Shown here: positions 578 through 15,756 of the stretch, one piece after another | Layout: every line of letters begins with the position of its first letter | Numbering within the stretch: position 1 is the first letter of the stretch | Assembly (NCBI GenBank): GCA_015485455.1 | Contig: WFTN01000180.1 | Span: 1-16,771, forward strand | Source: Planctomycetota bacterium | Lineage (GTDB): Bacteria > Planctomycetota > GCA-002687715 > DRQF01 | Reading direction: 5' to 3' | DNA length: 16,771 nt | Program-made: the position numbers and the translations under genes | The notes under the pieces: generated by a model | Told to the model about the DNA's origin: nothing | Database searches by the model: none | The model's input: the letters and a program-made list of their open reading frames with translations, nothing else

Positions 578-584
578 GAGGGAG

Positions 585-657
<73 letters not shown>

Positions 658-761: not shown

Positions 762-2357
762 TTAAGAAGCGAAGATACGGATATCCATGTCGGGGAAAAT
801 CGCGTCTTGCCGCTCCCATGATGCCAATTCCTCGACGTTTACCTCATCATTGAGCAGCATGTCTTCCAAGGTGAAGAAACGAAATACATGGTCGCGGAAG
901 CGTTTCTCTGCGTACCAAGTGGATGTTTCCATGGTCAAAATGAAGGGCCAATCGCTGGATTGAGCCAGGAGCAGCTCCCGGGCCATCTGGTGAAGAATGC
1001 GGCGTTGCAATTCTCTGTCAGGCAGAGTTTTCTTGGCCCAGACGACCATGCGCTCTTCCATCTCATGGAGATGGGGCCAAAACCACTGGTTTTTGTCATT
1101 CAACCAGACCTTGTAGAAACCGTCTTCGCCCCAGGAGCAAGGGCCGATTTTGGCCTCATGGATTTCTGCCGACTGCTGGAGGATTTCACTGGGAGTACAG
1201 AGATTGAAGGTGGCATCGTCGGCATGATCCGCCGCCTGTCGAAATACCTCCTCTAAGAACCATGGCCCTTCGTACCACCAGTGGCCGAATAACTCGGTGT
1301 CGAATGGTGCTGTGATGACCACGGGTTTCCCCTGTACTTCATTTTGGTGAGCAATCTGCTGTCCTCGATTGAAAAGGAAATTACCCGCGTGGGTGGCCGC
1401 ACGGGCCTTCGCCAAGGAAGGGGAATAGAGTTCTTTTTCATGAAGGGGCACGTCCCCGGTGATGCGGTGGTATTTCATGCCGATATTGCGGCGCACACCA
1501 TCTTGTTTGAGGAAGGGCAGAATGTAGCGGTAGTCAGCGTCGTAGCCGATGTCTCGATAGAGTTCCCGGTAGTCTGGGTCCCCAGGATAACCGACGATGG
1601 ATGACCAAACTTGTTGGGAACATTCCGAGTCTCGACCGAAAGCAGCTAAACCGGCCGGTGTCTTGACGGGACGAAAGCTCCCGTTTTCAGGGGGTGGTTC
1701 CGCGCCGGTGAGGGCATGGGTGTCCAACACTGTGAAGGCGATTCCCTCGTCCACCAACATGCGATCGATTCCTGGGCCAATAGCACATTCTGGTAGCCAG
1801 AATCCCTTGGGAGCCCCGCCGAAGACATCTTTGTGTAGTTGAACACCCAAGGCAATCTGGGCTTTGGTGGCCGCTTCAGTCCGAAACAGGGGGAGGAAAC
1901 CATGAGTCGCTGCGCTGGCAATGATCTCGATGAGACCTAAGTCCTGGAATCTGCGGAATGCGGCGGAGAGATCTCGGTCACAGGCATGGAAGAAACTAAG
2001 CATTTGCTCAAACCGAAGCTGGTAGTGGCGAGCAGTTTCTAAGCGAAGCCGATCTCCGGCATGCCGTTTGACTTCTAAGCCAGCTAATTTGATTCTCTTC
2101 TCAAGGTAGATCTCGAATTTCGCCATGAGGTCGGAGCATCTCAACATATGCACCAAAGGTGGAGTCATGGAAAATGTGAGTCGGAAAGGAACCTTGTCTA
2201 TCCATAAGTCATTCATGACGAAGAGCAGAGGCAGATAAGTCTCTGTTATGGCCTCAAATAGCCAATCTTCTTCCAGGAAGTCTTCGAAGTCTGGGTGGTG
2301 GACATAGGGAAGGTGGGTGTGAAGGACGATGCACACGGATCCTTGCTTTGGACTCAT
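762..2357 (-). CDS. GH57 (DUF1957) 1,4-alpha-glucan branching enzyme
   Basis: This 531-residue protein is the GH57 type of glycogen branching enzyme, which cuts an alpha-1,4-glucan and rejoins it in alpha-1,6 linkage. Motif 1 is HTHLPY (residues 13-18). The nucleophile motif GFWLPEC places Glu190, and the acid/base motif FDTELFGHWW places Asp353, both close to the positions known in Thermus and Thermococcus enzymes. A Trp-rich helical C-terminal region (QSSDWPF, 466-472) is also typical. The reading frame extends 93 bases further into glgA, but the ATG at 2357 overlaps the glgA stop as ATGA and gives the expected N terminus. Translation is therefore probably coupled to glgA. Pure amylase or 4-alpha-glucanotransferase activity is possible for GH57, but the motifs and context favour branching. 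No GH13 GlgB is in the window, so this may be the cell's main branching enzyme. Confidence 0.9.
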   Translation of the reverse strand: MSPKQGSVCIVLHTHLPYVHHPDFEDFLEEDWLFEAITETYLPLLFVMNDLWIDKVPFRLTFSMTPPLVHMLRCSDLMAKFEIYLEKRIKLAGLEVKRHAGDRLRLETARHYQLRFEQMLSFFHACDRDLSAAFRRFQDLGLIEIIASAATHGFLPLFRTEAATKAQIALGVQLHKDVFGGAPKGFWLPECAIGPGIDRMLVDEGIAFTVLDTHALTGAEPPPENGSFRPVKTPAGLAAFGRDSECSQQVWSSIVGYPGDPDYRELYRDIGYDADYRYILPFLKQDGVRRNIGMKYHRITGDVPLHEKELYSPSLAKARAATHAGNFLFNRGQQIAHQNEVQGKPVVITAPFDTELFGHWWYEGPWFLEEVFRQAADHADDATFNLCTPSEILQQSAEIHEAKIGPCSWGEDGFYKVWLNDKNQWFWPHLHEMEERMVVWAKKTLPDRELQRRILHQMARELLLAQSSDWPFILTMETSTWYAEKRFRDHVFRFFTLEDMLLNDEVNVEELASWERQDAIFPDMDIRIFAS

Positions 2358-4252
2358 CCTAGGGGCACCATTTTCTTTGGGGTTTGAATTGTGTTGGATC
2401 CCAGGATGACGCATCGGGGGAAATCTGTGGTCTGCATCAAGAGTTCGCAACGATAGCGCTGATTGGGATCAACGGTGATAAACCAATTCTTGGCCATGCC
2501 TTCGACTTCGATTTCCCAGGAGAAATGCGTGTCCAGGTTTTCGATTCTCAGAGTCCAGGTCGATTCCCACTTCTGGCTTTCAGAAAGGGAATCCAAGATG
2601 GCCTTACCTCGAGGTCCTTGGACTTCCCAATAGGCCCAAATGGTCTCAGGGTCTTTGAGCATCAAGCGCAAGGTGTCTTTGTGGTAGTAAACCGGGATTT
2701 GTGCCTGCTCTTCTGGCAGGGTTGCAGTAGGTTCCAAGCGCATATGAGACAGTAATTCTGTTTCTCTTTCTCGATTGAGGCGCATGGCAATGGCCTCTTC
2801 GTAAACCCGCAAGTATGCAGAGGCACTTTCGTCCCAGCCCCAATCTTGAGCCATGGCGTTTTGGACCAAGCGTCTCCAGCTACCACTTCTTCGAAACAAA
2901 GTGAGGGCCCGTTTGGTGATGTCGGTGAATGCCTCAGCACTGGCCTTCGAAAAGACAAACCCCGTGGCTTCTTTCAGATTGCCCCCTTCGTAGGCGACAA
3001 CCGTGTCGGCCAAACCACCCGTTTCGCGAACGATAGGAATTGTGCCGTAGCGCTGGGAGATCATTTGATTGAGTCCGCAAGGCTCATAGCGAGATGGCAT
3101 GAGGAAGATGTCAGAACCCGCTTCGATTAAGTGGGCCAAAGCCGGGTCGAACTTAAGAGCAACTCCTACCCGGCCAGGGTACTTCTTTGCGGTTTCCGTG
3201 ACCGCCAACTCGACGTCCTTGTCCCCTTGGCCTAAGATCACTAACCGAAGGTCCTTTCGCCTGGCGAAAAGGGCAGGGAGGGCATCTAAGATGATGTCGA
3301 TGCCCTTTTGCCATGTGAGCCTGGCAACAACCGCTAAGAGAGGGCCAGAACTGGGGTCCAAGGCGAAGGCTTCCAGAAGGGCTTTCTTGTTGGCTTTTTT
3401 GCCTTCCATGTTATTGGCGTCAAAGTGATGGGGGATGAGTGTGTCATGGGCCGGATCCCACTCTTGGCTATCCAGGCCATTGGGAATGCCGTGGAAGTGC
3501 TCGGCTCGCGCTTCAAAAATGGCTTCCAGCCCTTTTCCTTGATCTGGGCTCTTGAGCTCCGTTGCATAACGTTTGGAAACGGTGGTGACCCGTTCTGCAA
3601 AGATGGTTCCAGCCTTCAAAAGGTTGATATCTCCTCCCTGAAGCAGGTACCAGTCGCTGAGCAGATCTGTTCTCAATCCGCTTCTGCGGTAGTCGTCTGT
3701 GGACATACGGCCTTGAAAAGCGGCGTTATGAATCGTCAGGACGCAAGCCGTATCAGCGCAATCTTCGTCGAAGTAATGTTCTGAACGGTAAAGGGCAGGC
3801 ACTAAAGCGCTATGCCAATCGTGAACGTGAAGGAGGTTGGGCTTAAAGCTCATGCGCTCGCAGGCATGGCGAATAGCCGCGCTGAAGTAAAGCCAACGCA
3901 GGTCACCGAGGCCGGTGGGTCCTAGCTCATTGCCATAGATAGCATCCTCAATCTCGAAGAAGTCTGGGGCCTCGATGAGGAAAACCGGGACGTCCCGGGG
4001 GTCCGTGTCCATAGCTAAAAGGTTAAATGGGCGGTTTTCACCAGCGAATGCGAAGGGGATACTCTGAGCAACGGTTTTCAGATGCCCCAGCGACTCTCGC
4101 ATATGAGAATAGAGGGGCGTGATGATCCGCACATCGACTTGGAGTGATTTAAGAGCTTTCGTGAGGCCAGCAGATACTTCACCTAATCCACCAACCTTGG
4201 AGTAGGGCGAAAGCTCAGGCGTGACAAAAAGCACCCGTGTATTGTCGGTCAT
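2354..4252 (-). CDS. glgA: Glycogen synthase (GT5) with C-terminal DUF4912-like domain
   Basis: ADP-glucose:glycogen glucosyltransferase elongates alpha-1,4-glucan chains in the cytoplasm. The N-terminal GT5 domain starts VLFVTPELSP and carries KVGGLGEV, with Lys19 for ADP-glucose binding. The VHDWHSALV region lies near 143-151, and the nucleotide-binding domain has SRYEPCGL with catalytic Glu390 and TGGLADTV. The catalytic part ends near residue 485. About 145 further residues follow, including YHKDTLRLMLKDPETIWAYWEV (split as YHKDTLRLML then KDPETIWAYWEV), the hallmark of DUF4912, so the protein (632 residues) is much longer than the usual 480. The first ATG (4264) would give MGNH plus this sequence, but the ATG at 4252 has GGGA six bases upstream and fits the putative promoter better. 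The stop overlaps the GH57 start by 4 bp. A carbohydrate-binding role for the extra domain is inference. Confidence 0.93.
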   Translation of the reverse strand: MTDNTRVLFVTPELSPYSKVGGLGEVSAGLTKALKSLQVDVRIITPLYSHMRESLGHLKTVAQSIPFAFAGENRPFNLLAMDTDPRDVPVFLIEAPDFFEIEDAIYGNELGPTGLGDLRWLYFSAAIRHACERMSFKPNLLHVHDWHSALVPALYRSEHYFDEDCADTACVLTIHNAAFQGRMSTDDYRRSGLRTDLLSDWYLLQGGDINLLKAGTIFAERVTTVSKRYATELKSPDQGKGLEAIFEARAEHFHGIPNGLDSQEWDPAHDTLIPHHFDANNMEGKKANKKALLEAFALDPSSGPLLAVVARLTWQKGIDIILDALPALFARRKDLRLVILGQGDKDVELAVTETAKKYPGRVGVALKFDPALAHLIEAGSDIFLMPSRYEPCGLNQMISQRYGTIPIVRETGGLADTVVAYEGGNLKEATGFVFSKASAEAFTDITKRALTLFRRSGSWRRLVQNAMAQDWGWDESASAYLRVYEEAIAMRLNRERETELLSHMRLEPTATLPEEQAQIPVYYHKDTLRLMLKDPETIWAYWEVQGPRGKAILDSLSESQKWESTWTLRIENLDTHFSWEIEVEGMAKNWFITVDPNQRYRCELLMQTTDFPRCVILGSNTIQTPKKMVPLG

Positions 4253-4277
4253 ATGATTTCCCATGGAACAGTGGGAT

Positions 4278-4305
4278 AAGATAACCCTCGCTGAGGATTT
4301 GTGAA
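4278..4305 (-). promoter_or_regulatory. Candidate promoter of the glgA-GH57 operon
   Basis: On the minus strand TTCACA (complement of 4300-4305) lies 16 bp from TATCTT (complement of 4278-4283). Transcription would begin near 4271, leaving only about 7 bases before the ATG at 4264 but about 19 before the ATG at 4252, which has a Shine-Dalgarno site. This supports the second start. The -10 match is 4 of 6, so the call is moderate. Confidence 0.4.
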
Positions 4306-4378
4306 ACCCAGGAAATGTCAGAAGTTCAATCTCTCCCTTCTGAGTTGGTGAAGAACGGGAATAAAGTCAAGCTGGTGG

Positions 4379-4407
4379 TTGGGAGGGCGCTGGCAGACAA
4401 ATAGAAT
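4379..4407 (+). promoter_or_regulatory. Candidate promoter of the lysine-tailed ATP-grasp gene
   Basis: TTGGGA (4379-4384) is followed after 17 bp by TAGAAT (4402-4407). The predicted transcription start near 4414 falls inside the hairpin at 4411-4425, leaving a leader of about 85 bases before the ATG at 4501. Confidence 0.4.
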
Positions 4408-4410
4408 TCA

Positions 4411-4425
4411 CCACCTCGGGGGTGG
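4411..4425 (+). other. Short G+C-rich hairpin at the predicted 5' end of a leader
   Basis: CCACC (4411-4415) and GGTGG (4421-4425) form a 5-bp G+C stem around TCGGG. There is no T tract, so it is not a terminator. It sits where the ATP-grasp transcript should begin and could be a 5' stabilising stem or a protein-binding dyad between the two divergent promoters. The rest of the 4253-4500 intergenic stretch shows nothing I can name. Confidence 0.3.
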
Positions 4426-4500
4426 AGATACCCTCAACTCATACAAAACAAGGGGTCGGGTTGCTGCAGCCTGAACTCATGATTTCCAAAGGTGAATGTG

Positions 4501-5583
4501 ATGAAAATTGGATTGCTGGTCGGTCGGGAAGAGTCTTTTCCCAAGGTGTTCTTAGAACGAATCGCGGATCTTGGCCGGGATGATGTGACGGCGGAGATGA
4601 TCGAATTGGGCGGAACTCGCCATGATGCTTTGGCTGACTACGATGTCATTATCGATCGTATCTCCCATGACGTGCCTTACTACAAATTGGCACTCAAGCA
4701 GGCCCAACTGGCGGGTACACGGGTGATCAATAATCCATTTTGGACAACTGCCGACGATAAATTCTTCGGCTATGCCTTAGCGGATCGTTTGGGACTTGCC
4801 ATTCCCAGAACTGTGCTTTTGCCCAATAAGGACCACAGCGATGATGTGGCTCCTGAAACCTTGCGCAACCTCATGTACCCCATCCCTTGGGAAGAGCATG
4901 TGGAGTGGGTGGGCCTTCCTGCGTTTCTCAAACCTGCCACCGGCGGGGGATGGAAGCAAGTGGACCAAGTGCACAGCGTTGAAGAACTGATTCATCGCTA
5001 TGACCAGTCCGGCACAGAGACCATGGTGATGCAACAAGCCGTCGACTTCGACCGCTACATTCGATGCTTCTGCTTCGGCGGCAAAGATGTGATCATCACC
5101 CGCTATGACGTCGAGAATCGTTGTTACCTGCCGTTGGATGATGATTATCTGACAAAAGCTGAGACCAAGCGCGTCATCAAGGATTGTCGCAATATCAACA
5201 AAGGCCTGGGTTATGACATCAACACAGTCGAGTTCGCCTTCGAAGACGGTGTTCCTTACGCTATCGACTTCACCAACTTCGCTCCCGACATGGAGTATTG
5301 GTCGGTGACCCCCGTCTACTTCGATCGCATTATGGATGCCGTCGTCAAGTTGGCTTTGGAATCTGGCAAGGTGAAATACAAGTCTTTGACTTCGGACGCC
5401 TTTGTTGCCGGGGGCATTCCTCTACCCAAGAAACGAGCTAAGAAGAAATCAACAAAGTCTTCGACCAAGAAGGCAGCAGTCAAGAAGAGCGCCAAGAAAA
5501 AAGTAACCACGAAGAAGAAAGCATCGACTAAGAAAAAGACCGTTGCAAAGAAGAAGTCGAAAAGAAAAAGCGCCGCTAAGTAG
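4501..5583 (+). CDS. RimK-like ATP-grasp ligase with lysine-rich C-terminal tail
   Basis: This is a 360-residue ATP-grasp protein. Such enzymes activate a carboxylate as acyl phosphate and join it to an amine; the substrates here are unknown. MKIGLLVGREESFP begins a pre-ATP-grasp fold. Residues 84-90 (ADDKFFG) carry the first ATP-binding Lys. AFLKPATGGGWK (141-152) is the glycine-rich loop, and NTVEFAFEDG with AIDFTNFAPD (241-263) supplies the metal-binding acidic residues and Asn. Residues 310-360 are a low-complexity tail of Lys, Ala, Ser and Thr (25 Lys in 51 by my count), like histone H1/AlgP tails, suggesting binding to nucleic acid or a polyanion. Although GTG at 4492 is open, the ATG at 4501 has AAAGGTGA six bases upstream and a cleaner N terminus. 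The gene is divergent from glgA and converges on the RNase gene. The presence of two other ligases nearby suggests a shared pathway. Confidence 0.85.
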   Translation: MKIGLLVGREESFPKVFLERIADLGRDDVTAEMIELGGTRHDALADYDVIIDRISHDVPYYKLALKQAQLAGTRVINNPFWTTADDKFFGYALADRLGLAIPRTVLLPNKDHSDDVAPETLRNLMYPIPWEEHVEWVGLPAFLKPATGGGWKQVDQVHSVEELIHRYDQSGTETMVMQQAVDFDRYIRCFCFGGKDVIITRYDVENRCYLPLDDDYLTKAETKRVIKDCRNINKGLGYDINTVEFAFEDGVPYAIDFTNFAPDMEYWSVTPVYFDRIMDAVVKLALESGKVKYKSLTSDAFVAGGIPLPKKRAKKKSTKSSTKKAAVKKSAKKKVTTKKKASTKKKTVAKKKSKRKSAAK

Positions 5584-5596
5584 CCAAGTCGGCGGA

Positions 5597-5634
5597 CGAA
5601 GGGAAGGTCCGGTTAGTGTGGACCTTTCCCTTCG
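5597..5634. terminator. Terminator-like hairpin between convergent genes
   Basis: CGAAGGGAAGGTCC (5597-5610) pairs with GGACCTTTCCCTTCG (5620-5634), a 14-bp stem with a one-base bulge and loop GGTTAGTGT. It lies 14 bases after the ATP-grasp stop and 57 bases beyond the RNase stop. The T tract is poor (ATTT), so termination on the plus strand may be partial or the hairpin may protect the 3' end. Confidence 0.6.
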
Positions 5635-5690
5635 ATTTGAACACCGATGGCTCTTACTCTCCTGAATAGGTCCATTGGCTTGTTCGTTTT

Positions 5691-7118
5691 CTAATCCTCA
5701 AGGACAATGGTTGAGAATAATTTGGCAATCTCAACGTTCTTGTGGCCTTCATCTTCTAGCTTTTCCTTTAGGGGGAGGCTTTGAGTTTCTTCTCCGTGAA
5801 TCAGGATGACTTTCTTGAGTGTATCCTTCAGGTGCTCTAAAGAGTGGATGATGCCAGCTTGGTCACCATGGGCGGAGAATCCATTCATTGTTACCACCCC
5901 TGCATTGAGTTCGTACTCTTGGCCGAAGATGCGGATGTTCTTTTCTTTCTTTCGTATGCGCCGCCCCAAGGTGTGCTCCGCCATGTAGCCAACGATGCAA
6001 ATGACGTTCTTTGGGTCTTCAACAGTTCGTTTGAGATGGTGGAGGATACGACCCGCTTCGCACATGCCCGAAGACGTGATGATGATCATGGGATTTGGCA
6101 TGTCATTGAGTGCCTTCGATTCGTCGACAGACTCGACGTAATGGAAGTTGCTCATGCGGTCTTCGTCTTCCTTCTTTAGAAAAGCCAGAGTTTCTTTATC
6201 GAAACACTCAGGATGATTGAAGTAAACCTTGGTTGCCTTTTTCGATAAGGGGCTGTCGACGTAGGTCGGGATTGGCTCGATTTCCCCACGAGAGAAAATG
6301 CTTTGCAGGAAGTAGATGATGTTTTGCGTCCTGCCCACGGAGAAAGCCGGGATGATGAGACGACCTCCCCGTTTCTTGGTCTCTTTGAGTACTTCAACGA
6401 GCTGCGCTTCCATGTCGCCGATCGGTTCGTGGAGACGGTCGCCGTAGGTGCTTTCTGTGAGTATGTATTCGCAGGGAGGATAGGGAACTGGATCTCGGAG
6501 AATGGGCATATTCGGCCGCCCCAAATCACCGCTGAACACGACGCGCACGTCTTTCTTGCCAGGGCGTTTGATGGTCACATGGGCTGAGGCAGACCCAATG
6601 ATGTGTCCTTGGTCGGTCAGCTGGACTGTGATTCCTGGAGCAACATCAAATTCCTGATCGTAGGACACAGGGAAGAAAAAAGAGTCGCAAGCCTCGGCGT
6701 CTTTGACAGTGTAAATGGGCTCGACCAAATTCTTCGGTGTTTTCTTGCCTTCTTTGCGGGCATGGCTCTTGCGTTTCTTGTTCAGATGCTCAGCGTCACG
6801 CTCTTGAATGTTACCACTATCTCTGAGCATGATTTTGGCTAGGTCTGCGGTTGCGCGGGTGCAATAGATGTGGCCTTCGAAACCTTCACGGATCAAAATA
6901 GGCAAGGCCCCACTGTGATCGATGTGAGCATGGGTGAGGACCATATTGTAAATAGTTTTGGGATCAATTGGAAAAGCAGAGTTGCGTTCGCGACTCTCTT
7001 GTCTGCGCCCTTGGAACATACCGCAATCGAAGAGGATTTTGGTGCCATCGACGTCCAGAACGTGCCGGGAACCAGTGACTCCCTGGGCCGCTCCATAAAA
7101 TGTGATTGAAATACTCAT
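5691..7118 (-). CDS. Beta-CASP metallo-beta-lactamase RNase (CPSF73-like)
   Basis: This 475-residue protein has a metallo-beta-lactamase core plus beta-CASP domain, the family of RNA-processing nucleases related to CPSF73/YSH1. After ITFYGAAQGVTGSRHVL it carries the zinc motif LTHAHIDHSG (His63, His65, Asp67, His68), later QGHIIGSAS and SGDLG (further metal ligands), then the beta-CASP motifs ESTYGDR, PAFSVGRTQ, SSGMCEAGR, GFSAHGDQ and ILIHGE. It lacks a C-terminal RNase J domain and any KH domain. A GTG at 7136 is in frame, but the ATG at 7118 gives the conserved N terminus and lies directly at the predicted transcription start, so the mRNA is probably leaderless. RNA decay or 3' processing is the family role; specific targets are unknown. 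Its place beside the ligase operon may be incidental. Confidence 0.92.
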   Translation of the reverse strand: MSISITFYGAAQGVTGSRHVLDVDGTKILFDCGMFQGRRQESRERNSAFPIDPKTIYNMVLTHAHIDHSGALPILIREGFEGHIYCTRATADLAKIMLRDSGNIQERDAEHLNKKRKSHARKEGKKTPKNLVEPIYTVKDAEACDSFFFPVSYDQEFDVAPGITVQLTDQGHIIGSASAHVTIKRPGKKDVRVVFSGDLGRPNMPILRDPVPYPPCEYILTESTYGDRLHEPIGDMEAQLVEVLKETKKRGGRLIIPAFSVGRTQNIIYFLQSIFSRGEIEPIPTYVDSPLSKKATKVYFNHPECFDKETLAFLKKEDEDRMSNFHYVESVDESKALNDMPNPMIIITSSGMCEAGRILHHLKRTVEDPKNVICIVGYMAEHTLGRRIRKKEKNIRIFGQEYELNAGVVTMNGFSAHGDQAGIIHSLEHLKDTLKKVILIHGEETQSLPLKEKLEDEGHKNVEIAKLFSTIVLED

Positions 7119-7124
7119 ACGAGG

Positions 7125-7152
7125 ATTATCAAGCACCTCATGTTTTTGTCAA
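7125..7152 (-). promoter_or_regulatory. Strong sigma70 promoter of the RNase gene, giving a leaderless mRNA
   Basis: On the minus strand a perfect TTGACA (complement of 7147-7152) is followed after 16 bp by GATAAT (complement of 7125-7130). Only six bases separate the -10 box from the ATG at 7118, so transcription should start on the A of that ATG. This matches the absence of a Shine-Dalgarno sequence there and makes the upstream GTG at 7136 unlikely. Confidence 0.65.
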
Positions 7153-7161
7153 CGTGGTAGA

Positions 7162-7189
7162 TTTACAGCTTGGCCCCAATGTGGATAAT
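7162..7189 (+). promoter_or_regulatory. Sigma70 promoter of the permuted ATP-grasp/GCS2 operon
   Basis: TTTACA (7162-7167) and GATAAT (7184-7189) are separated by 16 bp, each one base from consensus. It is back to back with the RNase promoter: the two -35 boxes are 9 bp apart, and both promoters have a 16-bp spacer and a GATAAT -10 box. Transcription near 7196 would place a GGGAG ribosome site (7209-7213) in a short leader. Confidence 0.55.
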
Positions 7190-7220
7190 AACGCCTCGTA
7201 CTTTTATCGGGAGAATTCCA

Positions 7221-8555
7221 TTGACGGCTGAAACTGTATGGCAGGGGCTCTTGGACGGCAAGCGTGATGCCTGGATCGAGTCGATCCCGAGTCTCAAAAA
7301 GGAACTGGAAGCCGCTGGGGTTGTTTTTGGCGGCCGCCACCTTTGCAATCATTTGCGGCCGAAATTCTTGACGCGGGAAGAAGCTGCGAATCTCACTTTG
7401 ATCTCTGAGGCCGTCATGAGTGGTATTATGGCGGCGAAAGACCGGCTTCTTTCCGATCCAGCTTTGATGTCCATGCTGTGTCTGACGGAGGTCGAAAAGG
7501 AGATGGTCTCCCATGACCCTGGCTATGCCCATGTTGCTCCTTGCGTTCGTCTCGATTCTTTCATTACTGACAAAGGTGTTCAATTCGTTGAGCTCAATGG
7601 AGAATGTCCTGCCGGTCCTGCCTTCGGCGATCAGTTGGCGGACGTCTTCTTCGCTCACCCGATTTCTCTTGAGTTCGCTCAACAGTTTGACACGGAATAT
7701 GTGCGTACATTGCCGCCACTCTTGGACACGCTCTTAGCCTGCTATCAGGAGTATGGTGGGCGAAAGACACCCTCCATCGCCATCGTCGACTATGACCATG
7801 TGCCCACGGTGGTCGAGTTCAATCTCTGTGCCGAATATTTCGAGTCTCAGGGTTACCCGACGATCGTGTGTGATCCCCGGGAGTTGGAGTACGACGGTGA
7901 ACACTTGACTGCCAAGGGACGCAAAATTGACCTGGTCTATAAGCGTGTTCTCATGAACGAGTTCATCGAGAAATACGATGAAGTCAAGAACATGTATCTT
8001 GCCTACCGGGACCGAAATGTCTGTGTGGTCAATCCGTTTCGCTCCAAGTTAGTTCACAAAAAAGCTATATTTGCCATTTTGACCAGCGATGATCGAGATG
8101 TCTGGTTGCCCAAGGATTTGGCCCAGAGAATTGACCAAGCTGTTCCATGGACGCGCAACGTCAAGGAATGCAAAACGAGGTTTGAAGGGCAAGAAGTCGA
8201 CTTGTTGCCTTTCGTCGCGGAAAATCGTGCCATGTTCGTTATGAAACCAAATGATGACTATGGCGGCGCAGGGATCTACCTCGGTTGGGAAATGGATGAT
8301 GCTGCCTGGTCTGAGGCGCTGCAGGAAGCGACGAAGGGTGATTACGTCGTGCAAACGCGGTTGCACATGATTCCTGAAGAGTTTCCGGCTATGGACGATG
8401 GCCTCCAGTCGCAAAGCCTCTTTGTTGATCTCGATCCCTACATGTACTTAGGGAAGATGCGCGGGGCATTGGCTCGCTTGGGCGCTGGTGGTTTGTGTAA
8501 TGTTAGTTCTGGTGGCGGGCAAGTACCGCTATTGATCGTTGGCAAGTCGCTCTAA
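7221..8555 (+). CDS. Circularly permuted ATP-grasp-like ligase
   Basis: This 444-residue protein resembles the circularly permuted ATP-grasp/glutathionylspermidine synthase-like group. It has FVELNGECPAG (about 122-132), LVYKR (238-242), MKPNDDYGGAGIYLGWE (341-357), DYVVQTR, and a closing NVSSGGGQVPLLIVG. In permuted enzymes the metal- and nucleotide-binding halves occur in reversed order, as here. The frame is open from TTG at 7170 and ATG at 7179, but neither has a ribosome site and both precede the putative -10 box or lie before the predicted transcript start. TTG at 7221 has GGGAG seven bases upstream, so I choose it; the start remains uncertain. AAGGAG for the next gene overlaps this gene's stop, so the two are co-transcribed. 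Amide-bond formation is inferred from the family; the substrate is unknown. Confidence 0.8.
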   Translation: MTAETVWQGLLDGKRDAWIESIPSLKKELEAAGVVFGGRHLCNHLRPKFLTREEAANLTLISEAVMSGIMAAKDRLLSDPALMSMLCLTEVEKEMVSHDPGYAHVAPCVRLDSFITDKGVQFVELNGECPAGPAFGDQLADVFFAHPISLEFAQQFDTEYVRTLPPLLDTLLACYQEYGGRKTPSIAIVDYDHVPTVVEFNLCAEYFESQGYPTIVCDPRELEYDGEHLTAKGRKIDLVYKRVLMNEFIEKYDEVKNMYLAYRDRNVCVVNPFRSKLVHKKAIFAILTSDDRDVWLPKDLAQRIDQAVPWTRNVKECKTRFEGQEVDLLPFVAENRAMFVMKPNDDYGGAGIYLGWEMDDAAWSEALQEATKGDYVVQTRLHMIPEEFPAMDDGLQSQSLFVDLDPYMYLGKMRGALARLGAGGLCNVSSGGGQVPLLIVGKSL

Positions 8556-8565
8556 GGAGTCTCAC

Positions 8566-9669
8566 ATGGCAAATTTAACTCTCGGTGTCGAAGAAGAGCT
8601 CATGCTCATCGATCCGGAAACTCTGGAGCTTTCCAATAAGACCGAATCGTTTCATGCGGAAGCTGGAGAGATTCATGGAGAAAACCTGAAAGCGGAATTT
8701 CACGCGGCTTGCATCGAAATTGTGACGGATGTTTGCGGCTCGGTAGATGAAGTATTCAGCGAACTTTCCAGGCACCGCCAAGATGTGATTCGTTTGGCCA
8801 CGAAACACAATCTCTTGGTGGGGGCAGCAGGAACCCACCCTTCGACTCATTGGAAAGATGTGAACCTGACGGAAGGCAAACGTTACGGTGAAATCCTTGA
8901 TCGACTTCAAGACTTAGCCCGAGCTAATCTGATCTACGGTATGCATTGTCATATCGGAATTGACGATCCTGAGGCTCGCATTCAAGTGATGAATGCGGCG
9001 CGCTATTTTCTACCTCATCTTTTGGCCCTCAGTTGCTCCAGTCCTTTGTGGCAGGGGAAGATGACGGGGCACAGATCGATCAGGAGCCACATCTTTAAGC
9101 GATTCCCGCGCACGGGAGTACCTGACTACTACGGAGACTATGATGAGTATCGTCGTTTCGTTGAACTCTTGGTGAAGACCAAGTGTATCGACAATGCTAA
9201 GATGATCTATTGGGATATCCGGCCCCACCCGTTCTTTGATACGGTTGAATTTCGAGTTTGCGATACGCCCACAAGAGTAGAAGAAACTGCGGCGATCGCA
9301 GCCTTACTTCAGGCCATCGTGCACAAGTTGCTCAACCTCTACGAGAACAATTTGGGCCATCGCTTGTATCGTCGAGCCTTGATCGCCGAAAACGTCTATC
9401 GGGCGGCCCGGTGGGGACTTGATGGGCATTTGATTGATTTCCAGAAAGCCAAGGAAGTGCCCACAAGAGACGCTATTCGCGATCTTTGCCGATTCCTCAA
9501 AGATGATTTTGCGGCTTTGGGTTCGGAAAGATGGGTTGAAGTTATTGAAAGAATCTTGGAGGGCGGTAATTCGGCCCAACGCCAGTTGGCACGATTCGAA
9601 GAAACTCACGACACAAAGACGGCAACTCAGGGGATTATTGACGAAACCCATGAGGGGCTCATGTCCTAA
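8566..9669 (+). CDS. GCS2/YbdK-type carboxylate-amine ligase
   Basis: This 367-residue protein belongs to the glutamate-cysteine ligase family 2 (YbdK-like), which has the glutamine-synthetase-type fold and makes gamma-glutamyl or related amides using ATP. Diagnostic stretches are LGVEEELMLIDP (6-17), GMHCHIGIDD (125-134), SSPLWQGKMTGHRSIR, and WDIRPHPFF followed by DTVEFRVCDTP (216-235), with acidic and His metal or substrate residues. The length matches YbdK (about 370). The frame extends up to TTG 8539, inside the preceding gene, but the ATG at 8566 has a perfect AAGGAG six bases upstream that overlaps the upstream stop. It probably acts on the same pathway as the permuted ATP-grasp protein. 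True glutathione synthesis is only one possibility. Its TAA stop overlaps the stop of glgC on the other strand. Confidence 0.9.
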   Translation: MANLTLGVEEELMLIDPETLELSNKTESFHAEAGEIHGENLKAEFHAACIEIVTDVCGSVDEVFSELSRHRQDVIRLATKHNLLVGAAGTHPSTHWKDVNLTEGKRYGEILDRLQDLARANLIYGMHCHIGIDDPEARIQVMNAARYFLPHLLALSCSSPLWQGKMTGHRSIRSHIFKRFPRTGVPDYYGDYDEYRRFVELLVKTKCIDNAKMIYWDIRPHPFFDTVEFRVCDTPTRVEETAAIAALLQAIVHKLLNLYENNLGHRLYRRALIAENVYRAARWGLDGHLIDFQKAKEVPTRDAIRDLCRFLKDDFAALGSERWVEVIERILEGGNSAQRQLARFEETHDTKTATQGIIDETHEGLMS

Positions 9670-10901
9670 CCCATGTTGCTGGGTTCCTTGGGAATCACGA
9701 CGATGCCCGACTCGGAGACGAAAAATCTCTCTTCGTCTTTCTCGCGGTCGTAGCCGATGATTTCTCCGGCAGGAACGTGGACGTTCTTGTCAATGATCAC
9801 TCCCCGGAGCTTGGCACCTTCACCGATGTCGACATTGTCCATGATGATGGAATCTGTGATTTCAGCGAAGGAATGGATGTGCACGTTACGCCCGATGACG
9901 CTTCCTTGGACGCTGGCCCCAGAAATTATGCTTCCCTCAGCGATGAGAGTTTGGACCGCTTCTCCGCGTCGCCCTTGTTCGTCATGGACGAATTTTGACG
10001 GAGGGAGATCTCTCTGAGCGGTGCCAATGGGCCAATAAGGATTGAATAGATCGAAGCGTGGCACTACGTCCCTCAAGTCTAAGGTGGCTTCATAGTAGGC
10101 GTCGATGGTTCCAACATCGCGCCAATACGTATTAGGCTCGTCTGTGGTTCCGGGAATGATGTTCGTTTCGAAATTGTAGCAGAAGAGGTCTTTTCCTTCG
10201 GCCAAGAGTCGGGGAAGAATATCTTGACCGAAATCGTGAGAAGATGATTCGGTAGCCGCGTCTTCTGTCAAAGCGGTGGTCAAAGTGCGTTCAGAGAAAA
10301 CGTAGTTCCCCATGCTTACCAGGGCGCGACTTGGGTCGTTTGGCATGGGTGAAGGATTGGCCGGTTTTTCTTCGAAATCGAGAATGCGTCCATCATCGTC
10401 AATCTTCATCACGCCGAATTCTGTGGCTTGCTCGATTGGCACAGTAATGCCAGCAATGGTGACGTGGGCTTTTTGGGCCTCATGGAAGTTCACCATTTGG
10501 GTAACGTCCATGCGGTAAATGTGATCGCCACCGAAAACGGCCACGTATTGGGGGCGGTTCTCACGGATCAAGTTGAGGTTTTGGAAGATGGCATCGCCAG
10601 TTCCTTTGTACCAGCTTTCACCGGTTTGCATTTGGGCTGGCACGGGTATGATGAAATGATTCTTTAGAAGGGATATGTGACCCCAACCCCTTTGGAGGTG
10701 CTCGGTCAGGCTCTGGGACTTAAACTGAGTGAGCACGTAGATTGAGTAGATCTCTGAATTCATGAAATTCGAGAGCGCAAAGTCGATGATGCGATACTTG
10801 CAGCCAAATGGTACCGCAGGCTTTGCCCTATCCCGGGTTAAGGGAAAGAGTCTTGTTCCTTTGCCGCCGGCCTTGATCATTCCAAGGACGCGTTTGCGCA
10901 T
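9666..10901 (-). CDS. glgC: Glucose-1-phosphate adenylyltransferase (ADP-glucose pyrophosphorylase)
   Basis: This 411-residue enzyme makes ADP-glucose from glucose-1-phosphate and ATP, the committed step of glycogen synthesis. The nucleotidyltransferase signature AGGKGTRLFPLT and AKPAVPFG lie at 11-33. GGDHIYRMD is the metal/sugar loop, ILDFEEKP the phosphate-binding Glu-Lys region, and TYWRDVGTIDAYYEA the family's hallmark. The C terminus forms the left-handed beta helix (repeats such as IISGASVQGSVIGRNVHI). The residue before AGG is Lys10, where Leu or Met is common. The ATG has GGAGAG upstream. It follows the glucoamylase gene by 57 bases on the same strand, so the two are likely one operon. 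Effector-binding residues for allosteric control cannot be judged by eye. Confidence 0.96.
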   Translation of the reverse strand: MRKRVLGMIKAGGKGTRLFPLTRDRAKPAVPFGCKYRIIDFALSNFMNSEIYSIYVLTQFKSQSLTEHLQRGWGHISLLKNHFIIPVPAQMQTGESWYKGTGDAIFQNLNLIRENRPQYVAVFGGDHIYRMDVTQMVNFHEAQKAHVTIAGITVPIEQATEFGVMKIDDDGRILDFEEKPANPSPMPNDPSRALVSMGNYVFSERTLTTALTEDAATESSSHDFGQDILPRLLAEGKDLFCYNFETNIIPGTTDEPNTYWRDVGTIDAYYEATLDLRDVVPRFDLFNPYWPIGTAQRDLPPSKFVHDEQGRRGEAVQTLIAEGSIISGASVQGSVIGRNVHIHSFAEITDSIIMDNVDIGEGAKLRGVIIDKNVHVPAGEIIGYDREKDEERFFVSESGIVVIPKEPSNMG

Positions 10902-10958: not shown

Positions 10959-12851
10959 CTATGGAATCTGGCTGTCTGGATTTCGAGCAGCCATGGCGAC
11001 GTCAATCCAGGTGCTGTGGCTCCAAAGAAGGGGGCAAACGGAGATGCTCTCGCCGTTGAGAGGGTGTACCTGTTCAGGCATGGCGCCGCTGGGTCGCATG
11101 TGTCGAATGACCCAATCCATGAGCTTTCTCGCTTGTTCCTTGGAAGACTTGCCGCCGACCAAGAGATGCCAATGAGCGAACCAGAGGGTGCAAATGAGCC
11201 AGGGATTGCCAGGGATCACCTCGGGTTTTCTGCTCCGACGATGATAGTGGTCGTCTGAATAGCGAGCAATCCCACCAACCCCTTGGTCGACGGTGAGGAG
11301 AGGTTCGATAGACTCTATTGTCTTCTTGATCAAATCGTCGTGAATAAGGTCGTGATCGAAGAGAAAAAGGCCACAGAGTGATGCGTCCGGTGTGGTATCT
11401 AAATGAAGATCACCGTTTTCGGCCACTGTGGCCATGCGGGCATAGCGGCCGGCGTCTTGATGGAAGAGCCGGGTGCGCATGGATTCTTCCATGGTTTTTG
11501 CGGCCTGGAGATATTCTCTATAATCGTCTCTATTGAGTTTATGCCCCAAGGTTCCGCAGGCTTTCAAGGCAGCTATGACGCTGGCTACGGTGAAGGTGTG
11601 AATTCCGAATCGTTCTTCCCAAAGGTCATGGGAGGGATGAGGGAGTCCAGTTTCTGCGTTGCGATAATTGAGCAAGAATCGGCCGCAAGGAAACACCAAA
11701 TCATCCGCCAATTGAGATGATTCCCCCCTCAGGAGCCCCGCTTCGACGTGTTTAGCCGCAGCCAAACAGCAAAGAGCCGTGGAGTCTTCCTGGATCGGAC
11801 GGTAGGGGTTTGCTCTTTCAAAGTCTGGGTGCCAACTACTGCCGGGAGAACCATCCGGAGAATAGCGCTGCCCGAGAAAGCCTTCCCTGGAAAGGCCTGA
11901 GACACAGAAATCATAGAACTTCTTGGCGGCTAGCCTGTTTCCCAATTGATCCCATGTCATGGCAACAAAAGCCCCGTCCCGGGGCCAGACATAGGCGTAG
12001 TGTTCTCGGGCTTGAGAGAGGCTTTCCGTGTCTGGAGAAGCGATGACCGCGTCTTCGAAAACGCTGAGGACGTCGATGGAAAGAGAGGTCACAGCGGGGA
12101 TCGTCCAACTGGGTCTGGAGGCGGTTTCTTCTTTGTCCCATTGTTTCATGCTCCAGGTGCCGGAGATCTCCTTGCGAAGTGCGGTCTCCACATCTTTGTG
12201 CTGCCAAGCAGCCAAGTAGGTCGAAACCACGGCGGTACCGTTTTCATCGCAGGTAAGGTCAATGCCCAAGACGCTTTCCCCTGCCCCCACAGCACAGGGG
12301 TTATTGTCGAGTCCTTGCCGCTCCACAAGAGCACGAATACCCCGGCCATCTTCACTGTCTCTTCGTCCGAGAGTCCATCGCGGAGTCAGACTTGAGTCAA
12401 GAAGACCGATGCCGATTGACTGCTGCCGTTTGCTGTGACGAATTTCAGATTCATCTGGGAGAAATCGAACTCCATCTTGGTATTCCGTTTCTAATAGACG
12501 AAAGTCATGGTGGAGTAGAAGAGTGAGATGTTGCCCTGGATGGGCTTGCAGGTGAAAGTCTCGCCGCACCAAGGGGAGAGTGTCGTCCACTAGGGTCGAC
12601 ATAGACAACGCGATTTGGGGGCCAGACAACTCCCATTGCGCCTCCAGGTGCCGTGAGCTCTTCATGATCGTGGCGTGTTGGCCACCATCCCCGATCCAGT
12701 TTGTCGTTCCTTTGGTGATGATGCCGATTTCACAGGGAGCCCCTAAGGTGTGGTTCCACAGACCAGGGATAGGGTGAAACACCTCGCGTACCCGCCCTTT
12801 GGCATCAAACACTAGGGTTAACTTTCCGTTTCCGATTGTTAGGTCTCTCAC
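10959..12851 (-). CDS. GH15 glucoamylase (glucan 1,4-alpha-glucosidase)
   Basis: This 630-residue protein has the layout of bacterial GH15 enzymes: an N-terminal beta-sandwich (about 1-250) and a C-terminal (alpha/alpha)6 barrel. YVWPRDGA (287-294) is the conserved substrate-binding loop, DLWEERFG (409-416) carries the general acid Glu412, and GAMPEQVHP (589-597) the general base Glu593. It removes glucose from non-reducing ends of alpha-glucans, including branch points in some members. There is no signal peptide, so it should act on intracellular glycogen rather than external starch. Start is GTG with GGAG six bases upstream. No strong promoter is evident between it and the preceding terminator. 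Trehalase or glucodextranase specificity within GH15 cannot be excluded. Together with glgC it forms a synthesis plus breakdown pair. Confidence 0.92.
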   Translation of the reverse strand: MRDLTIGNGKLTLVFDAKGRVREVFHPIPGLWNHTLGAPCEIGIITKGTTNWIGDGGQHATIMKSSRHLEAQWELSGPQIALSMSTLVDDTLPLVRRDFHLQAHPGQHLTLLLHHDFRLLETEYQDGVRFLPDESEIRHSKRQQSIGIGLLDSSLTPRWTLGRRDSEDGRGIRALVERQGLDNNPCAVGAGESVLGIDLTCDENGTAVVSTYLAAWQHKDVETALRKEISGTWSMKQWDKEETASRPSWTIPAVTSLSIDVLSVFEDAVIASPDTESLSQAREHYAYVWPRDGAFVAMTWDQLGNRLAAKKFYDFCVSGLSREGFLGQRYSPDGSPGSSWHPDFERANPYRPIQEDSTALCCLAAAKHVEAGLLRGESSQLADDLVFPCGRFLLNYRNAETGLPHPSHDLWEERFGIHTFTVASVIAALKACGTLGHKLNRDDYREYLQAAKTMEESMRTRLFHQDAGRYARMATVAENGDLHLDTTPDASLCGLFLFDHDLIHDDLIKKTIESIEPLLTVDQGVGGIARYSDDHYHRRSRKPEVIPGNPWLICTLWFAHWHLLVGGKSSKEQARKLMDWVIRHMRPSGAMPEQVHPLNGESISVCPLLWSHSTWIDVAMAARNPDSQIP

Positions 12852-13033: not shown

Positions 13034-15343
13034 TTAGCGACCGTTTGTTTTCTTATTCTTGTTGGATTTCTTAGCTCGAGCCCGTTTTCTTAGTTCGGCA
13101 GATGCAGATTTCAGGGCGTTGATTCTCGCCACCTTTTCTGCGATGAGTGCTTTCTTCAATGCGTTGACTTGTTCGCGCTCTTCGGATTTATTCTTCAAGT
13201 CTTGATCGACCTGGAGCAAGCGACTTTCAAGGGCGTTTCGGCTCCTGAGCTCGTTGAGCAGAGTTTCAACTTGGCTGAGTTCTTTCTTTGTCTTGGCGAT
13301 TCGATGGGCGCTCTCGTTTCTCTTCATCAGGCGTTCGATGAGGCGCGCTTGCCGTTCCATGGTCTTGGTCAAGCGATCGATCCGTCGGTTGAGGTTCATG
13401 ATCTGGCGGTCGACAGTGCTTCGGGCCCGGCTTTGGCGCGCCCGAGCTCTTGAAGATGGCTGTTCTTCTACTATTTCCAATTCACTTACTTCTTCTAATT
13501 CTTCATCTTCGAAGATCTCGACGATCCTTTTCGGGGCGACTTTCACTTGCTTCTTGTGGTTGAAGCTAACAACAATCGTTTTGATGGATGCCCCGCGCAT
13601 GACAAGGAACTTGATGGGTGTCTTGCCACCGCTCCGTTTCTTGGCCGCTCTGATCTGCTTCATGGAAGCATACTCCCCGTCGATCTTGACGATGGGATCG
13701 TTGACCTTGAGGCCGGAACGCTCGGCATGAGAGTTCTTGATTATCTTTGTGATGATGAGCCCTGTGCCTTTAGGCATGCCCAGATTTTCCGTCAACTTGG
13801 AATCGAATGACTTCAAGATGACACCAATCTCGAATTTTGTTTTGGTTTTTTTCCATGACTTGATGCTCTTAAGGGTGGCATCCATGGGGCGGGGGGCCTT
13901 GATGAAATCGATGGTCGCATTCGGAGGTAATTCTGGCGCTGGTGGAGACAGGGTGTCCGTCGTTGTGGCATCGATCTGAGCCGCCTTCGGCGCCGTGTCC
14001 GTTGATTGAGGAATAGGCATGTGGGCGGCAAGGGCGACTTGGCTTCCAAAGAGGCAAACTGCTGCGAAGGCTGCACCTAACACCTGCATGAGGCGCAAGG
14101 GGCGAATCGTGTTCCGTTCTGACTGAGCTAACATTTTGATTCTCCTTTCTAATTGGGACATGGAGCCCGACCAAGGAATGAGGGCCGGCGCGGTGGGGGA
14201 CAAGGTTGGTAGACGTGACGTCTTGTTTTTTTGTTCGGCGTATTCAAGAAGGGCCAAGGCGTAACTCTTTCGGCTGCCCTGGGAACCAACAACTGTGTGG
14301 TCGCAAGATATCTCACGCATCCGGTTCAACTCAGAATTGAAGAACCAGGTTGCAGGATGAAACCAGAACAAGATTCTCAAGGCACTCTGAAACAATGTCG
14401 TTCGTGGGTCACCCCGTTTGAGGTGAACGAGTTCATGACGCAAAGCCCATTTGAAAGGTGTCTTGTTTTCATTTCTGATGATCAAGTTTGGGACGATGAT
14501 CATAGGCTTGAAGACTCCCCAGCATACAGGAGCATGAACAAGAGGCGATTGGCACAATTGAATCCGGTCCGATGCGGACCCGGCCACTTCCCGCCATACT
14601 TTGAGGGTAAGTTCGTCGGTGACAGGTGTCGCTGTGTTTGTAATCTCTTGGGTTTTACGAAGTCTTAAGAGCTCGATAACTGAGGTGATTGCCACGCCGA
14701 ATAGGTGAAGGTAAATCAACCAAGGAGCACCAACATGGGGTGCTAAGGAACTTGATAGGCGCTCGAGGGTCGTTTGTTTTCTTTCATCGTTTACCAATGT
14801 GGCCAGTGCTGCTGAGGAATCTCTTGGACTGAGCTCTTGGTTTTGATTCTGGCTGTCGGTGAAATCTAGTGAAGAACTGCCCATGTCTGCATTTTCTCCA
14901 GCTTCCACCCAACTAACGAATGGCTCTTGGCCGAAGGCCGTCTGCGAGTCTCTGGGCCATGGGGTGGCAGAATCTGTGGTAAGGCTTTCTGCGAAGAATG
15001 ACTCGGGGGACTGGGTTGCGCGTGTTACACGGGAGTCTTCTGAGCTGAAGATTTCTTTCAAGGGGATGACATTTTCTCCGACGATATCGACGCCTTTTTG
15101 CATAAGAGGGTCTGAGGATCTCTTGAGCGGTTCGGGATCTTCATGGTGACTGTTTTGTAAATATGCTGTTCCGAACTGCAAAGGCAGAGTGATCAAAAAT
15201 GCCATGAGGATGAAAACCAAGAAACCGTGGTAGATCGTTGGGCGCCGACTGAGGAGAGCACGGCCCAAGTAGATCGTCAGAGCCGTCACCACCCCTAATG
15301 TCACGGAACTGATCAGAAAATGAGTGTTCCAAAGAGCCATCAT
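13034..15343 (-). CDS. BlaR1/MecR1-like M56 metalloprotease sensor with PDZ and coiled coil
   Basis: This 769-residue membrane zinc protease is paired with a BlaI-type repressor. Predicted membrane segments lie near 8-28, 38-62, 206-226 and 419-440. The M56 domain has RHELVHLKRGD with zinc ligands His303 and His307 and catalytic Glu304; Glu344 in REISCDHTVV is the likely third ligand. The loop between segments 2 and 3 is enlarged (about 140 residues, acidic and Ser/Gln rich). Instead of a penicillin-binding domain, the extracytoplasmic part has a PDZ domain (about 503-595, with GTGLIITKIIKNSHAERSGL), an acidic patch (610-627), a long coiled coil (about 640-745) and a Lys/Arg tail. It should therefore sense something other than beta-lactams, perhaps exposed protein C termini. 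The ATG has GGGGAGG upstream and overlaps the repressor stop as ATGA. The protease would cleave or trigger loss of the repressor. Confidence 0.9.
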   Translation of the reverse strand: MMALWNTHFLISSVTLGVVTALTIYLGRALLSRRPTIYHGFLVFILMAFLITLPLQFGTAYLQNSHHEDPEPLKRSSDPLMQKGVDIVGENVIPLKEIFSSEDSRVTRATQSPESFFAESLTTDSATPWPRDSQTAFGQEPFVSWVEAGENADMGSSSLDFTDSQNQNQELSPRDSSAALATLVNDERKQTTLERLSSSLAPHVGAPWLIYLHLFGVAITSVIELLRLRKTQEITNTATPVTDELTLKVWREVAGSASDRIQLCQSPLVHAPVCWGVFKPMIIVPNLIIRNENKTPFKWALRHELVHLKRGDPRTTLFQSALRILFWFHPATWFFNSELNRMREISCDHTVVGSQGSRKSYALALLEYAEQKNKTSRLPTLSPTAPALIPWSGSMSQLERRIKMLAQSERNTIRPLRLMQVLGAAFAAVCLFGSQVALAAHMPIPQSTDTAPKAAQIDATTTDTLSPPAPELPPNATIDFIKAPRPMDATLKSIKSWKKTKTKFEIGVILKSFDSKLTENLGMPKGTGLIITKIIKNSHAERSGLKVNDPIVKIDGEYASMKQIRAAKKRSGGKTPIKFLVMRGASIKTIVVSFNHKKQVKVAPKRIVEIFEDEELEEVSELEIVEEQPSSRARARQSRARSTVDRQIMNLNRRIDRLTKTMERQARLIERLMKRNESAHRIAKTKKELSQVETLLNELRSRNALESRLLQVDQDLKNKSEEREQVNALKKALIAEKVARINALKSASAELRKRARAKKSNKNKKTNGR

Positions 15344-15756
15344 TGTTTTTCCTCCCCATCATCCAATTTGGATTCGATGAATGACCGCAGATCTTCTAAC
15401 GCAGTCCGGGAGAGAGCTTCGTCGTCCACCAGGTGGTGGAGCAGGGGTTCGACTTTTCCGTCGAACAGCCGTTCTACTAAGTCCCCGATCATCTTGGCGC
15501 TGACTTGACCCCGTTCTTTCTTGGCCATGAAGAGGTGTGCCCGGGAAGGGCCTCGTTTGGTTTTGACGAAGCCTTTGTCACGCAAAATGGTCAAAACAGT
15601 TTGGACGGTATTGTAGGCCAGAGCCTTTGTTTGGCCGCGATTGATCAGCTCTGTGACTTCTCGCACTGTCATGGGGTCGCCCTGGGAGTCCCAGATGACG
15701 CGCATGACCGATAGCTCAAGCTTGGTGAGTAACTCTGTTGATTTTCGTGTTGCCAT
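15340..15756 (-). CDS. BlaI/MecI-family transcriptional repressor
   Basis: This 138-residue protein has the winged-helix N-terminal domain of BlaI/MecI/CopY regulators. LELSVMRVIWD is the first helix, REVTELINRG and LAYNTVQTVLTILRDKGFV form the helix-turn-helix, and KRGPSRAHLFMAK is the wing. The remaining helices (about 83-130) would form the dimer interface, where the partner protease normally cuts (an Asn-Phe or similar site is not evident). The ATG has GAGGA upstream. It is the first gene of the pair and its stop overlaps the protease start, so the two are coupled. Two palindromes in the promoter region are probable operators, giving negative autoregulation. The true target genes beyond this operon are unknown. 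Confidence 0.93.
   Translation of the reverse strand: MATRKSTELLTKLELSVMRVIWDSQGDPMTVREVTELINRGQTKALAYNTVQTVLTILRDKGFVKTKRGPSRAHLFMAKKERGQVSAKMIGDLVERLFDGKVEPLLHHLVDDEALSRTALEDLRSFIESKLDDGEEKQ

Follow-up and report, generated by a model that had tools for sequence, protein, structure and literature searches.

The window analysed here is the whole of contig WFTN01000180.1 (16,771 bases), part of a metagenome-assembled genome of the Planctomycetota that is 77% complete and is labelled G000 in comparisons with other genomes of its class. It contains a glycogen locus that encloses genes for three amide-forming ligases: a RimK-like ATP-grasp ligase, a circularly permuted ATP-grasp ligase and a YbdK/GCS2 carboxylate-amine ligase. 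These three genes are one co-conserved module, which in the Planctomycetota is recurrently linked to glycogen genes; the conservation of the module, this linkage, and the folds and marker residues of the proteins are direct observations. The interpretation towards which we lean, with confidence a little above the midpoint, is that the trio is a stepwise, ribosome-independent amide-ligase module that would make a pseudopeptide of the gamma-glutamyl type, and that this product acts with glycogen or upon it. The locus has the following features.

762..2450, minus strand: GH57 glycogen branching enzyme with BE_C domain (PF03065, 118 bits; PF09210, 110.5 bits)
2354..4264, minus strand: GlgA glycogen/starch synthase with C-terminal DUF4912 (TIGR02095, 503.4 bits, cut-off 328.45; PF16258, 53.4 bits)
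4265..4500, no strand: short intergenic region between the divergent GlgA and RimK-like genes (from the sequence)
4501..5583, plus strand: RimK-like ATP-grasp ligase with a tail of 65 residues, 42% Lys/Arg (ATP-grasp fold)
5691..7136, minus strand: beta-CASP metallo-beta-lactamase (PF10996, 130.8 bits)
7221..8555, plus strand: circularly permuted ATP-grasp ligase of the glutathione synthetase/GspS/YgiC fold (fold and conserved residues)
8566..9669, plus strand: YbdK/GCS2 carboxylate-amine ligase (NF010039, PF04107; AAGGAG Shine-Dalgarno sequence ahead of ATG)
9666..10901, minus strand: GlgC ADP-glucose pyrophosphorylase, convergent with GCS2 (TIGR02091, 469.2 bits, cut-off 424.9)
10959..12851, minus strand: GH15 glucoamylase-like protein (PF00723, 64.3 bits)

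The trio sits between GH57-GlgA and GlgC-GH15, with the beta-CASP gene between the RimK-like gene and the permuted and GCS2 genes, which form one operon. The window qualifies as a bacterial glycogen locus, with GlgA and GlgC above their cut-offs and a GH57/BE_C branching enzyme recognized by Pfam; the GH57 open reading frame opens with TTG and overlaps GlgA, and its true start is probably further in. The first-pass annotation, which had placed three different amide-forming ligases in a glycogen locus at 4501..9669, is confirmed, its coordinates being right and the marker residues checked being intact in the window.

Conservation of the ligase module in other phyla

Co-conservation was assessed in 119 genomes drawn evenly from the Acidobacteriota, the phylum of a trio-bearing genome, with all three families searched in the same set. 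RimK-like proteins were matched in 35 genomes, GCS2 proteins in 38 and permuted ligases in 25, of which 18 full-length cases were kept and 7 weak partial ones left out. All 18 genomes with a full-length permuted ligase also have a RimK-like protein (Fisher 2e-13, weak RimK matches left out), and 15 of the 18 have GCS2; stricter versions of the co-occurrence count also drop 4 genomes with weak RimK and 6 with weak GCS2 matches. A pair of the genes lies within 5 kb in 23 of the 28 genomes that have at least two of the families, and all three are together in 6, a count that omits weak permuted matches, a weak additional copy in G096 and, for GCS2, matches below 55% identity. These counts agree with the earlier suggestion that the genes are likely makers of a peptide-like product, in that they describe a co-conserved amide-ligase module. 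In addition, a RimK-like gene is present in all 17 of a chosen set of permuted-ligase genomes, previously known in the locus in 12 and located elsewhere in the genome in 5.

In a scan of named records, relatives of the permuted ligase were encoded on 557 stretches, from which the 80 best loci, picked by similarity, were retained. These are mainly from Acidobacteria, with early-branching groups of Cyanobacteria, Calditrichaeota, Armatimonadetes and others. GCS2 lies within 5 kb in 31 of the 80, a RimK-like gene within 10 kb in 19, and both in 15; many of the contigs are short, which depresses all neighbour counts.

Partner genes were counted 8 kb to each side of 73 RimK-like loci. Partners found there include the PF00756 esterase Est28 (22/73), an M29 aminopeptidase (10/73) and a second PF00756 esterase, Est83 (6/73). 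A protein of 406 residues with no Pfam match, f15, occurs in loci that have the RimK-like gene but lack the permuted one, mostly with GCS2; its motifs, read by eye, suggest a second permuted ATP-grasp-like protein. Other variants include a glutamate ligase resembling BesA (NF042917, 164 bits against a cut-off of 750) and a protein that, read by eye, looks like an amidotransferase. Since these variants replace or join members of the trio, the parts of the module seem exchangeable around a common core. Other neighbours in the Acidobacteriota (Nuo-like, LpxC-like and AccD-like proteins read by eye, and a PilZ protein by Pfam) gave no pathway hint. Near three Est28-RimK-permuted-GCS2 clusters (L134, L135 and L145), the first 4 kb encode TldD/PmbA-like proteins with an HEVLGH motif, read by eye; the titles of two of these records name Obscuribacterales.

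A cluster that combines several ligases with hydrolases (M29 aminopeptidase, esterases) would also fit a peptide reserve or a compatible solute whose only tie to glycogen is co-regulation as another storage compound, both of them storing carbon or nitrogen. This is a minor possibility, since a purely amide-linked reserve gives the esterases no obvious place, and no cyanophycin synthetase scored above its cut-off in the selection of neighbours searched with Pfam/NCBIfam.

Linkage to glycogen genes across the Planctomycetota

The RimK-like family is present in 66 of 392 Planctomycetota genomes. Its 75 places include 58 outside the window's class. Of these 58, 27 (in 26 of 55 genomes) were examined, comprising the best-ranked and some spread lower rather than a random draw. 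GlgA, GlgB or GlgC is found at 12 of the 27 loci, or 13 if L242 is counted, where GlgA is cut by the end of the stretch and falls below the 150 bits required of a match; GH15 was not taken as a glycogen marker, and the duplicate loci L111, L151 and L217-L220 were dropped. As a control, glycogen genes occur at none of 14 planctomycete loci (4 of them from class genomes) that have the permuted or GCS2 gene and lack the RimK-like one. They likewise occur at none of 114 non-planctomycete loci, 50 with a RimK-like gene and a few titled just 'bacterium', and a module tied to glycogen everywhere is thereby rejected. The co-occurrence with glycogen genes across genomes that the first-pass annotation had proposed to look for is thus non-random and recurs in the Planctomycetota.

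The linked loci come in different flavours. In clade A (L082, L083, L233 and L234), GlgB and/or GlgC lie near Est28 and the RimK-like gene together with, where the contig permits, GCS2, M29 and f15. In clade B (L089, L237, L238, L240, L241, L245, L246 and L249), GlgA and/or GlgC accompany copies of the ATP-grasp protein AG122, Est83, the RimK-like gene and Est28, while the flavour of the window's class consists of GH57, GlgA, GlgC and GH15. Curated cut-offs are passed in the four loci sampled, by GlgA (L240, L246), GlgC (L240) and GlgB (L234, L083); GlgC of L233 was assigned by tblastn (55%).

GlgA lies within 15 kb of the RimK-like gene in 9 of 26 genomes (23 with GlgA), compared with a chance expectation of about 0.18. 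The corresponding Poisson value of 6e-13 overstates independence, because the nine genomes share one RimK clade spread over four families; counting four events gives 4e-5. In a tree of 91 RimK-like sequences, made by a quick method and carrying a long-branch warning for clade B and the degenerate class proteins, the window and G002 form a starred pair beside two sequences from the Acidobacteriota phylum (85, open). Clade A (support 88) is nested within two starred sets in which Acidobacteriota sequences occur as well. The 15 members of clade B form a starred clade with a long branch. The glycogen-locus copies of G011, G008, G004 and G006 stand apart from the window, together near the drawn root, several of them long and degenerate, with joins that are possibly false. 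The starred branches require at least five changes of the Planctomycetota label. Glycogen-linked RimK-like proteins therefore occupy at least three clades of the quick tree, with different glycogen enzymes; this linking of separate clades to different enzymes speaks for repeated recruitment, or for repeated rearrangement under selection.

In clades A and B the ligase genes have esterase genes next to them, which hints that an ester bond is to be cleaved. This leads to a different proposal, in which glycogen or its chain ends would be decorated in the Planctomycetota with a short non-ribosomal pseudopeptide, the ligases building it on or for the glucan and the PF00756 esterases removing it; such a peptide-modified storage glucan would have been reached separately at least three times. 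We regard it as unlikely. One such esterase, at L089, has an Enterochelin_N domain barely above the Pfam cut-off.

Variation within the window's class

In the comparison of 12 class genomes, a glycogen locus that includes one or more trio members is present in G000 (the window), in G002 to G009 and in G011. G001 offers only a 3.3-kb contig with a partial GCS2, the permuted gene and beta-CASP, and no glycogen locus with a trio member was seen in G010. The complete trio lies between GlgA and GlgC in the window, G011 and G008. The RimK-like and GlgA matches are divergent, with edges 64-226 bp apart, in G002, G011, G008, G004 and G006. Counting paralogues, a glycogen gene is found at 7 of the 16 class loci that have a RimK-like gene.

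Several observations weigh against the proposed glycogen-linked function. The glycogen locus lacks the RimK-like gene in G003, G005 and G007 and the permuted gene in G004, G006 and G009, and GCS2 was not found at the G002 locus. Of 14 marker positions in the RimK-like protein at the glycogen locus, 9 are changed in G004, 9 in G006, 10 in G009, 6 in G008 and 4 in G011, where the ATP lysine position is among the four; of the class glycogen loci, those of the window and G002 alone look fully intact. An additional RimK-like copy exists elsewhere in each of these five genomes. The locus copy in these relatives is possibly non-catalytic or fading, as judged from residue changes, which does not fit a simple constant function, and RimK-like ligase activity appears doubtful in part of the class. 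It was the alteration of the G011 copy as well that lowered our confidence to its present level. Outside the class, 15 of the 27 planctomycete RimK loci show no glycogen gene, several of them being cut by contig ends, and the lack of glycogen genes at loci of other phyla indicates that the module as such does not require glycogen; the nine GlgA-near-RimK genomes, moreover, are not independent events, and the tree carries the long-branch warning given above. The first-pass annotation had named two findings that would speak against its proposal, scattering of the genes in close relatives and loss of catalytic residues. Both are borne out in part: RimK-like or permuted genes are off the locus in the six genomes named, against a full trio in three, and marker residues are altered in five, against two intact proteins.

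The same observations bear on whether the ligase and glycogen genes are neighbours by chance and functionally unconnected. The module without glycogen genes outside the Planctomycetota, and the class loci with a missing or degenerate member, would fit coincidence. It is nevertheless very improbable in view of the proximity of GlgA and RimK-like genes, observed in 9 genomes against about 0.18 expected, and of the involvement of at least three RimK clades with different glycogen enzymes.

Degenerate RimK-like genes are kept beside glycogen genes at L105 (6873-7790), L108 (8823-9773), L072 (10759-11358) and L096 (10698-11543), and may encode pseudoenzymes. Paralogous pairs of RimK-like and permuted genes occur in class genomes at L091 (457-2777), L093 (8176-10543), L101 (3026-5295) and L103 (9203-11472), with no GCS2 or glycogen match on the stretches fetched. 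Loss of the esterase from the window's class was considered and rejected, as an Est28 relative is present in 12/12 class genomes (just 33% identical in the window genome); no trio member was found on the stretches fetched around these relatives.

Family membership of the three ligases

The RimK-like protein has the ATP-grasp fold as in RimK, but scores only 33.6 bits with the RimK family model TIGR00768 (cut-off 143.4), and is below the gathering cut-offs of the R2K clade (R2K_2, 16.5 against 26.2; R2K_3, 13.6 against 26.3). The end motif of RimK is E-x-N. The window protein differs from RimK, LysX and ArgX in its D-x-x-N end motif (D256, N259), in its basic tail and in its distance from the TIGR00768 cut-off. 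Its family comprises at least 7746 proteins at E ≤1e-10 among 8000 scored, and no Pfam domain is assigned to any of the 120 members listed. The lysine-rich tail, singled out in the first-pass annotation as unusual, is not so in kind: a tail of at least 30 residues is present in 44 of 50 aligned members, 43 of these being net positive, and the window's has the highest Lys/Arg share among them.

For the permuted ligase, residues R110, D112, E124, N126, K281, K342, R419 and N427 are at least 97% conserved in 110 sequences. The protein is indeed circularly permuted, as first annotated, but its score with CP_ATPgrasp_2 (PF14403) is 19.4 bits, below the gathering cut-off of 32, and its fold is that of glutathione synthetase/GspS/YgiC, including the permuted ATP-grasp of eukaryotic-type glutathione synthetase. 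PF14403 is precomputed on many of the relatives listed, which makes the protein a border case for this family. Peptide-tag systems with CP_ATPgrasp_2 have alpha-E, transglutaminase or NTN partners, none of which appeared in a Pfam search of a selection of neighbours. By sequence, membership in canonical RimK, R2K, CP_ATPgrasp_2 and glutathione synthetase families all failed at the cut-offs. In the planctomycete G043, matches to the permuted ATP-grasp superfamily lie on five contigs (C114, C144, C155, C157 and C204).

The GCS2 protein falls within the YbdK/GCS2 family (NF010039, 446.5 bits, cut-off 371; PF04107, 197 bits, cut-off 21). Its GxExE, HxH, WDxR and TxExR motifs, whose residues we take to be the catalytic residues of YbdK/GCS2, are shared with YbdK (1r8g) in an alignment and are at least 97% conserved in 48 sequences.

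The operon of GCS2 and a glutathione-synthetase-fold ligase brings to mind a glutathione-like low-molecular-weight thiol, in which GCS2 would form gamma-Glu-Cys, the permuted ligase would add a third residue and the RimK-like ligase a fourth. For a relative of the permuted ligase, GSP_synth (22.8 bits, cut-off 29.3) and a glutathione synthetase model (25.1, cut-off 408) both match below threshold, and the PF00756 family, whose esterases accompany the module elsewhere, also includes S-formylglutathione hydrolase. The window's own permuted ligase matches no glutathione synthetase Pfam family at E ≤10, a search in which HMMER's filters discard the majority of matches above about 0.1. The enzyme that completes bacillithiol synthesis, BshC, is encoded by 10 of the 12 class genomes, the window's included, indicating that a main thiol is probably already made, and a thiol needs neither a third ligase nor glycogen genes. 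The thiol product that the first-pass annotation had offered as one option is thus less likely, and we consider it quite unlikely.

Tagging of proteins would give the RimK-like ligase the central role, adding amino acids or a peptide to GlgA, to a ribosomal protein or to its own basic tail, and so controlling glycogen synthesis. This is rather unlikely, given the RimK-like protein's score far under the RimK family cut-off and the substrates of GCS2 and glutathione-synthetase-type ligases, which are small molecules.

Proposed function

For the stepwise pseudopeptide module that we favour, we infer the reaction order, substrates, product and role as follows. The GCS2/YbdK ligase would join an amine to glutamate, or to an acid like it, through the gamma-carboxyl group, giving gamma-Glu-X. 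The permuted ATP-grasp ligase would then make an acyl phosphate of the carboxylate of this product and add a second amine, like glutathione synthetase or GspS, and the RimK-like ligase would attach a further amino-acid-like unit, yielding a gamma-glutamyl-type pseudopeptide. The module or its variants may have moved repeatedly into planctomycete glycogen-synthesis loci, and on the strength of this repeated entry a joint action of the product with glycogen is most likely. The product might be a regulator of glycogen enzymes, a co-stored reserve or a group attached to the glucan.

Neighbouring genes

In each of the three genomes of the window's family (the window, G001 and G002), the beta-CASP gene adjoins the permuted gene; it had no match in 8 other class glycogen loci compared and is probably a family-level insertion, not part of the ligase module. 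Its product scores 353.8 bits with NF045584, a model for type VII CRISPR-associated Cas14 whose cut-off is 800, and 292.5 with aCPSF1. The C-terminal DUF4912 of GlgA (2354-4264) is a possible glucan-binding or regulatory module. Elsewhere in the window are a tRNA-Ala (GGC) gene beside the glycogen locus (584-657, minus strand), a BlaI-type repressor with an M56/BlaR1-type protein containing a PDZ domain (13034-15756, minus strand) and a sigma-70-type factor close to the contig end (16072-16506, plus strand).

Relation to known systems and significance

Amidoligase neighbourhoods with operons of several unrelated peptide ligases, acting in successive ligations, were reportedly described by Iyer and Aravind in 2009. 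From glutathione and glutathionylspermidine synthesis, which pair GCL or glutathione with a permuted ATP-grasp synthetase, the window differs in its third ligase, its glycogen context and BshC, and in that similarity to glutathione synthetase models appears in a relative only, below threshold. For the R2K clade, linked peptide ligases are read as successive ligation in the passages available (PMC4431377), and by the same reasoning successive ligation is the simplest chemistry for the trio. The R2K neighbourhoods are alike in being multi-ligase operons, while the combination of GCS2, M29, PF00756 esterase and glycogen genes is absent from those passages. The Cp1B pathway of E-64 synthesis differs in being fungal and in using an epoxysuccinate substrate, with no glycogen link in the passages available (PMC12568646). 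Among the matches listed in the open-licence literature there was no paper linking ATP-grasp proteins to glycogen and none joining the trio genes, and a combined search for ATP-grasp, glycogen, esterase and neighbourhood returned no paper. The first 300,000 of 445,374 characters of a review of prokaryotic alpha-glucan metabolism (PMC11046441) contain neither 'ATP-grasp' nor 'DUF4912'.

Clusters of unrelated amide ligases are thus of a known kind, whereas a phylum-wide, recurrent tie to glycogen synthesis is not visible among the literature matches listed. This tie suggests that glycogen is connected, in a way so far undescribed, with a small product resembling a peptide, and the trio provides a small, testable gene set with which the product may be found and with which it may be asked whether glycogen is controlled or modified.

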